Below the pieces are notes generated by a model that saw only the letters and a program-made list of their open reading frames with translations, made no database searches and had not been told where the DNA came from. A program made the position numbers and the translations under genes. 64,000 nucleotides of DNA from Neoaquamicrobium microcysteis (GTDB taxonomy: Bacteria > Pseudomonadota > Alphaproteobacteria > Rhizobiales > Rhizobiaceae): the NCBI RefSeq assembly GCF_008180155.1, contig NZ_VSZS01000062.1:62001-126000 (forward strand), given 5' to 3'. This document shows positions 24,709 through 26,425 of this stretch, one piece after another. Within the stretch, counting starts at the first letter, position 1, and the number at the start of each line of letters is the position of its first letter.

Positions 24709-24996
24709 ATGGCGAAGAACGAAATACCCTTGTGGGAAGTCTTCATCCGCCCGCGCAACGGGCTGTCGCACAAGCATTGCGGCTCCGTGCATGCGGCAGA
24801 CGAGGTTATGGCGCTGAACGCGGCGCGCGACGTCTACACAAGGCGGGGCGAGGGCGTGTCGATCTGGGTAGTGCCTTCGGCGGCGATCGTGGCGTCGGAC
24901 CCCGAACACAAGGACGAGAATTTCGAGCCGGCGCTTTCGAAGGTCTATCGCCACCCGACCTTCTACAAAATCCCCGACGATGTGGGGCATATGTGA
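24709..24996 (+). CDS. paaB: 1,2-phenylacetyl-CoA epoxidase subunit B
   Basis: A 95-residue protein starting MAKNEIPLWEVFIRPRNGLSH, the invariable N-terminus of PaaB, which bridges PaaA-PaaC dimers. The start is preceded by GGGGAGACG. Twelve bases separate it from paaA, and its stop overlaps the paaC start (TGATG). Confidence 0.95.
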   Translation: MAKNEIPLWEVFIRPRNGLSHKHCGSVHAADEVMALNAARDVYTRRGEGVSIWVVPSAAIVASDPEHKDENFEPALSKVYRHPTFYKIPDDVGHM

Positions 24997-25757
24997 TGAG
25001 CGTTGCGCGCGAGCACCTCGTCACCCTCCTGCTGCGGCTGGCGGACGACCATCTGATCCTCGGCCACCGGCTTTCGGAATGGTGCGGCCATGCGCCGATG
25101 CTGGAGGAAGACCTTGCCATGCCCAACATCGCGCTCGACCTGATCGGGCAGGCGCGGGCGCTGTTCCAGTATGCCGGCGAAGTGGAGGGCAGGGGGCGGA
25201 GCGAGGACGACCTCGCCTATCTGCGGCGCGAGCGCAAATATCTCAACTGCCTGATGGTGGAGCGGCCGAATGGCGATTTCGCGCACACCATGCTGCGCCA
25301 GTTCTATTTCGCGGCCTTCATGCACGCGTTCTGGGAGAAGGCGGCGGCCTCTTCGGACGAGACGGTTGCCGGCATCGCGGCCAAGGCGGTGAAGGAAGTG
25401 GCCTATCACATCCGCCATTGCGGCGAGTGGGTGATAAGGCTGGGCGACGGCACGGAGGAAAGTGCCGCGCGTATGCAGGCGGCCGTCGAGGCGCTGGCGC
25501 CGTATGTGGACGAATTGTTCGAGACGGATGCGGTGAGCGAAGCGGTGGCGCAGGAGGGGGTCGCGCCGAGCCCGGCGAGCCTGCGGGGAGCGTTCGAGGC
25601 GACAGTCTCGCGCGTGTTTGCCGAAGCGATGCTGGAGATGCCGGCGGCTGCATGGCCGCAGACGGGCGGGCGGCAGGGACGCCATGGCGAGGCGATGGGC
25701 TATCTGCTGGCCGACCTGCAACATATGCAGCGGACCTATCCGGGAGCGGTGTGGTGA
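24996..25757 (+). CDS. paaC: 1,2-phenylacetyl-CoA epoxidase structural subunit
   Basis: A 253-residue helical ferritin-like subunit that pairs with PaaA but lacks a complete di-iron site. The DDHLILGHRLSEWCGHAP and YLRRERKYLNCLMVERPNGDFA segments are diagnostic. It overlaps paaB at its start, and its TGA overlaps the GTG proposed as paaD start (GTGA). Confidence 0.95.
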   Translation: MSVAREHLVTLLLRLADDHLILGHRLSEWCGHAPMLEEDLAMPNIALDLIGQARALFQYAGEVEGRGRSEDDLAYLRRERKYLNCLMVERPNGDFAHTMLRQFYFAAFMHAFWEKAAASSDETVAGIAAKAVKEVAYHIRHCGEWVIRLGDGTEESAARMQAAVEALAPYVDELFETDAVSEAVAQEGVAPSPASLRGAFEATVSRVFAEAMLEMPAAAWPQTGGRQGRHGEAMGYLLADLQHMQRTYPGAVW

Positions 25758-26425
25758 GGGCATCTTCGGGTCAGCGCGAGGCAGCACCCCCACCCCTTAC
25801 CCCTCCCCTCAAGGGGGAGGGGGATTCTGAAAAGTTCACGCCTGGGACAATTGTTGCAATGTCAGGCGCGACGCATATGTCTCCCTCCCCCTTGAGGGGA
25901 GGGGTAAGGGGTGGGGGTGTTGTCACGTCGGCAGAACGGACGGGGGAGACCTCGCGCGGTGGAGCGTGGGACGCCGCGGCCGCCGTGCCGGACCCGGAAG
26001 TGCCGTGCGTGACGGTGGCCGATCTGGGCATATTGCGCTCGGTCGAGATCATCGACGGCGTGGCGGTGGCCAAGGTGACGCCGACCTATTCGGGTTGCCC
26101 GGCGGTGCTGGCGATCGAGCTTGCCGTGGAGGTGGCGTTGCGGGATGCCGGCTTCGAGGCACGGGTCGAGCGGGTCATCTCGCCCGCCTGGACGACAGAC
26201 TGGATCACGCCGGAGGGTCGCGAGAAGCTGCTCGAATACGGCATCGCGCCGCCTGCGCAATCGTCCAACTCGATCCGCGCGCTGTTCGGTGAAACGCAGG
26301 TCGATTGCCCGCAATGCGGCTCCAGCGAAACGGAGCGGGTTTCCGAGTTCGGCTCTACCGCGTGCAAGGCGCTCTACCGCTGCACGGCGTGTCGCGAGCC
26401 GTTCGATTATTTCAAGTGCATATAG
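25754..26425 (+). CDS. paaD: PaaD, iron-sulfur assembly-like protein, enlarged by an in-frame palindromic insert
   Basis: PaaD helps mature the iron-sulfur cluster or metal site of the epoxidase. The conserved region starts at VPDPEVPCVTVADLGILR (MIP18/DUF59-like fold) and ends in a zinc-ribbon with CPQC and CTAC pairs. The coupled GTG at 25754 overlaps the paaC stop and gives 223 residues. Between this start and the conserved domain lies a 135-bp palindromic repeat (25785-25919), exactly 45 codons, without a stop. Removal would leave 178 residues, the normal size. An ATG at 25859 inside the repeat is the only alternative in-frame start close to the domain; it would leave a 188-residue product. 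Whether the extension is translated and tolerated is open. Confidence 0.88.
   Translation: MRASSGQREAAPPPLTPPLKGEGDSEKFTPGTIVAMSGATHMSPSPLRGGVRGGGVVTSAERTGETSRGGAWDAAAAVPDPEVPCVTVADLGILRSVEIIDGVAVAKVTPTYSGCPAVLAIELAVEVALRDAGFEARVERVISPAWTTDWITPEGREKLLEYGIAPPAQSSNSIRALFGETQVDCPQCGSSETERVSEFGSTACKALYRCTACREPFDYFKCI
25785..25919. repeat. Palindromic repeat element inside paaD
   Basis: Two perfect 37-base inverted arms, 25785-25821 and 25883-25919, flank a 61-base centre. The arms consist of C-rich/G-rich blocks such as CCCCTCCCCTCAAGGGGGAG. Similar CCCCTCCCC-AAGGGGGAGG palindromes are, from general knowledge, frequent intergenic repeats in rhizobial genomes. Here the element is within a reading frame, with length divisible by three. 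No second copy is visible in this window. Confidence 0.92.

Follow-up and report, generated by a model that had tools for sequence, protein, structure and literature searches.

Palindromic repeats within bacterial genes

The described systems that come closest include the Rickettsia palindromic elements (RPEs), palindromes of about 150 bp that lie in frame within unrelated protein genes; for proteins decorated by one of them, RPE-1, expression in vivo is stated (PMC10969869, PMC3733652). A second group are the intragenic REPs, tagged by GTAG/CGTC, which occur inside genes as dimers of hairpin repeats – including different REPs at approximately the same recB site in two Xanthomonas species – and of which most N-terminal examples in three named species are suspected to be non-coding (PMC3733652). 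Small mobile repeats that supply coding sequence to genes are also known as ERIC/RU elements and QMITEs (PMC2759123, PMC5896051), and palindromic repeats of bacteria related to those considered here include RIME and Bru-RS, the latter classed as intergenic (PMC2267715).

The subject of this study is the paaC–paaD junction of a phenylacetate gene cluster harboured by the window, by which we mean the whole stretch of 64,000 nucleotides that was analysed. There, as at the same junction in some other Rhizobiaceae, a palindromic repeat is found in frame near the beginning of paaD. The paaD repeats resemble RPEs in being palindromes placed in frame in protein genes (24 of 26 paaD elements are open, and HrpB has such inserts in 4 of 35 genomes). 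They differ in having other hosts and, apparently, in being other, GC-rich repeats, and also in that a single N-terminal position in a single gene is used by several repeat families in different members of a bacterial family. Three loci whose junctions are identical to those of family members (L083, L085 and L088) come from Rhizobiaceae, Mesorhizobium and Nitratireductor, and because of these hosts the window repeat is not classed as an RPE.

With the intragenic REPs, the paaD repeats have in common that hairpin repeats lie inside genes and that different repeats occupy about one site. Unlike REPs, they show no GTAG/CGTC tag (by reading, neither tetranucleotide is present on either strand of the window arms), no associated Y1 transposase and a frame evidence that favours coding. 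As for the transposase, PF01797, the profile of the RAYT type, has no match in the 68-contig genome to which the window belongs, its control being positive in 5 of 14 genomes; a RAYT-driven REP is thereby ruled out. ERIC/RU elements and QMITEs are enterobacterial and Coxiella repeats, for which the available portions of the sources mention no single site shared by several families, and RIME and Bru-RS are set beside the five families distinguished below (F1–F5) as palindromic repeats of related bacteria.

A literature search, in which sources were available in part and few subscription journals were covered, brought up no earlier account of palindromes lying in frame in paaD or at the paaC–paaD site. 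For this reason, although coding palindromes as such are already known, the paaD site with these hosts and repeats appears to be new as a variant. Judging by the sequences compared here, we consider it likely that families of mobile palindromes repeatedly insert in a permissive N-terminal tail of PaaD, and that only the in-frame insertions survive, on the pattern of the RPEs though with different repeats and hosts.

A palindrome between the start and the domain of PaaD

In the window, paaC, which encodes a subunit of 1,2-phenylacetyl-CoA epoxidase, occupies positions 24996–25757 of the plus strand (TIGR02158, E = 7.5e-85) and ends with a TGA stop at 25757. On the same strand, paaD extends over 25754–26425, with 223 codons counted from a GTG that overlaps the paaC stop (GTGA); its frame is open through 25754, and residues 78–223 match TIGR02159 (E = 8.1e-57). 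A Shine–Dalgarno-like GGGAG at 25742–25746 (+), inside the end of paaC and 7 nt upstream of the paaD GTG, may serve this start.

The initial annotation of this DNA had described a palindrome with perfect arms between the coupled GTG and the PaaD domain, and an inverted-repeat scan finds it as described: two 37-base arms, at 25785–25821 and 25883–25919 (+), flank a 61-base centre at 25822–25882 (+), all of it upstream of the TIGR02159 match that begins at residue 78. When mismatches are tolerated, the inverted repeat widens to 25777–25824 and 25880–25927, with 92% identity over 48 bases. Matches to a 21-base core of the arm are confined to the two arm positions, and the palindrome is the sole inverted repeat in the 64-kb window with a score of at least 16 and a span of at most 260; the same scan of one Markov-1 simulated window, run as a control, gave none. 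Folded as RNA, it reaches −111.3 kcal/mol (z = −13.4).

From 25785 to 25919, the palindrome measures 135 bases, that is, 45 codons, and these prove to be free of stops in the paaD frame – open from 25754 – just as had been claimed; over the whole spacer, both other forward frames are closed. The further remark that the protein would have the normal size without the repeat also holds, since the window PaaD minus the insert has 178 residues, compared with 165–175 in 14 translated relatives scored as empty.

An assembly artefact is an unlikely source of the palindrome, because the site lies inside a contig of 287,578 bases and comparable elements are found at the same site in other genomes. A conserved, divergent protein segment is ruled out by the relatives, which have different palindromes there.

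Copies of the repeat elsewhere

A search of the whole genome with the window element returned 61 rows, which correspond to 30 stretches and, after merging of strands and neighbouring arms, to 23 places, paaD included. The further genomic copies for which the initial annotation had suggested looking are therefore present, many of them partial and matching an arm only. Of the features that define MITEs, terminal inverted repeats and multiple copies are both found in the window repeat; for target-site duplication, the filled and empty sites are too diverged for a reading. Nor was an exact empty site found for the window's own element: the four closest congeners have other palindromes or arms, and the tails of empty relatives have diverged.

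The lengths of copies elsewhere were estimated from alignment spans and are approximate. They show no preference for multiples of three, which make up 2 of the 12 two-arm copies elsewhere in the window's genome and 2 of 13 copies of family F2, the latter chosen among the matches listed and leaving out one copy of 119 bases in genome G166. None of 150 named plasmid records exceeded 80% identity. At the paaC–paaD junctions of seven loci, Rfam yielded nothing above its cut-off; on the paaE side of one locus (L029, 241–347, plus strand), it gave a match to RF02496 (Atu_At1) of 109.5 bits, the cut-off being 60.

The junction across Rhizobiaceae

The family sample comprised 394 genomes, evenly drawn from a larger group, of which 135 had a match, with one more genome (G002) contributed by a separate search; 136 paaC–paaD junctions from 135 genomes were readable, one genome having two. 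A palindromic element or its remains is present in 26 of these junctions and missing from 108, and two doubtful cases – an F2 remnant (L167) and a possible half element (L251) – enter neither the filled nor the empty count. Loci L037–L039, which belong to other families, were left out of the family count, and L038 was also left out of the tree. L064/L306, from genome G240, was dropped because the contig breaks off within an F3 arm there, between paaC and paaD; this break (L306, at the end of contig C51) suggests that junction repeats may break assemblies and so hide more cases.

Families F1–F5, as well as seven decayed copies, were assigned by eye. F1 is the window type, F2 the CTTCTCCCCG type (in L028), F3 the CCCCCCTCTGGCCTGCCGGCC type (in L029 and L030), F4 the CCCTCCCC...GGCGGC type (in L031, as a single arm) and F5 a fifth type (in L073). 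In the oriented junction of L073, 287 bases long, the F5 palindrome apparently sits within what is left of an F3 element, and the two jointly form an in-frame stretch of 97 residues. Among the congeners whose paaD is close, five with the window's genome included, every junction has a palindromic repeat or arm, albeit of differing kinds. A survey of 40 loci, each about 3.4 kb long, shows 16 strong palindromes, 14 of them in the paaC–paaD interval and 2 after paaE.

In a quick tree built from PaaC and PaaD (79 rows), all 25 elements of the first set fall within one clade of 35 rows (support 97), compared with none among the other 44 rows; ten rows of the clade are scored element-free. Mapped on this tree, the element labels imply at least 19 changes, in which gains and losses are indistinguishable. 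The 59 more distant junctions contribute one clear element and one doubtful one. A supply of repeats alone fails to explain the site, because F3 matches are abundant in genomes G076, G095 and G169, which lie outside the clade and have a paaD scored as empty. The overlapping GTGA is found at all 26 element junctions versus 47 of the 108 others, an enrichment that may perhaps reflect mere descent. Since the junctions share descent, 26 is not a count of insertions, and the independent ones may be as few as the five families plus L260.

The confinement of the first set to a single clade is what would be expected if one ancient in-frame element had been inherited and then overwritten through recombination with other repeats, with no insertion hot spot involved. 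The F3 tails, which share their reading frame and have similar edges, would agree with such a history, as would the nesting of one family in the apparent remains of another in L073. Even so, we hold it to be unlikely: one genus has different families at different distances from the start, genome G337 has F3 copies elsewhere that are 93% identical, pointing to a recent arrival, and L260 is found among the more distant junctions, out of phase.

Reading frame and stem

Repeated insertion with survival of the in-frame copies, the reading preferred here, finds support in the phase of the elements. Measured between the paaC stop and the PaaD helix, the spacing leaves a remainder of 2 on division by three, the value that is in phase with the coupled GTG, for 25 of the 26 elements, with L260 as the exception; in the 108 other junctions, uncoupled starts included, the three phases are represented 59, 27 and 22 times. 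The stretch is fully open in all elements but L030 and L260 (24 of 26). In the first set, the paaD frame is open in 24 of 25 cases and the two other forward frames in 13 of 50. On the assumption of five insertions, one per family, and with probabilities of 1/3 (length) and 13/50 (openness), this outcome would be expected about 5 times in a million, a figure that is rough because insertion events are hard to count.

The element of L030 contains an in-frame stop, downstream of which there is no ATG, GTG or TTG. The stop is possibly a sequencing error, because L030 differs from L029 in, among other things, single-base gaps at three runs of C or G, and because the hrpB gene of the same genome (G004, L208) has an apparent frameshift; the co-occurrence suggests indel errors in the assembly.

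The seven decayed copies, recognised by eye from arm remnants, have palindrome scores of 9 or below and thus no long palindrome, and they keep the frame; some (L031, L174) retain a short single-arm hairpin. As the frame outlives the long stem, we argue that the reading frame, rather than the long stem, is the target of selection. Pooled, 24 of the tails contain 13% Gly and 12% Pro.

Selection might instead act on the RNA. With a strong stem separating paaABC from paaDE, ribosomes could be slowed or the upstream message shielded, and subunit ratios so fixed, the tail being a by-product; the stem is highly stable (−111 kcal/mol), strong palindromes are concentrated at the paaC–paaD junction within the operon, and the hairpin design looks alike across families when compared by eye. 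That the hairpin is kept for this reason is nevertheless quite unlikely, given that the seven elements without a long palindrome are still in frame (though some have a short hairpin), that 10 of the 35 clade rows are scored empty and that in-frame copies occur within HrpB too. Decidedly improbable, in our estimate, is a related possibility: that the junction is a true hot spot at which palindromes of several families are favoured, the in-frame stem slowing ribosomes on their way from the oxygenase-subunit genes to those for PaaD/PaaE and so adjusting the proportions of these proteins, with an inert coded tail. If true, a selfish repeat would have been recruited many times over to brake translation.

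Where PaaD starts

Besides a new protein segment, the initial annotation had envisaged that paaD now starts at an ATG inside the repeat, and the element does contain two such codons in the paaD frame, at 25859–25861 and 25877–25879 (+). A start is expected upstream of the AWxAAAxVPDPE stretch at 25964–25999 (+), because an alignment of 31 PaaD proteins shows this to be conserved, with several residues (A71, A75, V78, D80, P81 and E82) unchanged throughout. Were paaD to restart at 25859 or 25877, the repeat would be only partly coding and would have supplied paaD with its start codon. Beyond +25 (25 bases past the paaC stop), 18 of the 26 elements, the window's among them, have at least one ATG, GTG or TTG in frame, and in these an inner start may be used. 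L260 goes further: stops interrupt the paaD frame in its left arm, GTG and ATG codons lie in frame inside the element, which is out of phase with the coupled start, and paaD seems to start within it.

As an account of the elements in general, however, restart inside the repeat is very unlikely. By eye, no convincing ribosome site precedes either ATG of the window, and inner starts, as a rule, would not preserve the coupled-GTG phase in 25 of 26 elements. Seven relatives with an open frame (L028, L059, L060, L061, L069, L172 and L174) have no in-frame ATG, GTG or TTG beyond +25 and before the conserved helix. In these seven species the repeat should be translated, barring a rare start codon, because the frame is open and no such codon occurs in or after the element ahead of the helix. 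The idea of an inner start thus stands for L260, seemingly, and as an option elsewhere, but not as the general rule. Read from its GTG, the window paaD has the predicted tryptic peptides EAAPPPLTPPLK and FTPGTIVAMSGATHMSPSPLR, the former within residues 1–35.

HrpB and other genes with copies

Apart from paaD, the window repeat has 22 places, 17 of which were inspected, and the open frame running through ten of these was scanned against family libraries. In the window's genome, one copy lies in hrpB, in frame and within a single TIGR01970 match. The corresponding HrpB linker was compared in 35 genomes, four of which have an in-frame insert (L201, L205, L243 and L244; three clear, L244 weaker), the other 31 segments being 28–41 residues long. 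The inserts consist of one arm in G000, full palindromes in G001 and G293 (scores 32 and 27, respectively) and a weaker hairpin in G296, and the left arm is read in different frames in G001 and G000. Because these inserts are internal, a misplaced start is excluded for them. The site is split over two contigs in G229, and G091 and G280 gave no match. With inserts in 4 of 35 genomes, the HrpB linker is ruled out as a family-wide hot spot.

In an acyl-CoA ligase gene (L018, 794–2971, minus strand), the repeat lies in frame between the Succ_CoA_lig and ATP-grasp domains, a linker that is variable among congeners regardless of the repeat. Further copies are found in open frame before the genes for prmC (L011), methylmalonate-semialdehyde dehydrogenase (L017) and a DUF1330 protein (L016), possibly upstream of the true starts.

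A model for PaaD and its implications

The broader suggestion of the initial annotation, that mobile palindromes can give rise to protein segments, gains support at the level of sequence from 26 of 136 junctions – 25 of them frame-keeping and 24 open – and from the HrpB linker. In the mechanism that we favour, a dispersed repeat, consisting of two inverted hairpin-forming arms and a variable centre, would land, by a mode of movement that is itself conjectural, between the coupled paaD GTG and the folded domain. We infer that ribosomes finishing paaC would begin again at the GTG that overlaps its stop and continue across the element, so that PaaD, otherwise normal, would be preceded by some 45 residues in which Pro, Gly and Ser are abundant. 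The N-terminal tail, presumably disordered, would be dispensable; insertions would persist if they keep the frame and are free of stops, and others would be purged by selection, because a break would separate the start from the domain. Several palindrome families would have reused this one permissive spot across a clade of Rhizobiaceae, in what we take to be separate insertions, and old copies would decay in frame.

Rickettsia is the best-known source of coding palindromes, and expression is stated for some of the proteins that carry them there (PMC3733652). The paaD junction offers a natural series within one gene, comprising filled, decayed and empty states as well as several repeat families, and in some species reading through the repeat seems to be the sole route to the enzyme. 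Cultured carriers of such elements include one Mesorhizobium and one Nitratireductor isolate. With this system one could test whether, outside Rickettsia too, protein segments arise from selfish repeats, and what effect an in-frame stem has on a translationally coupled operon.
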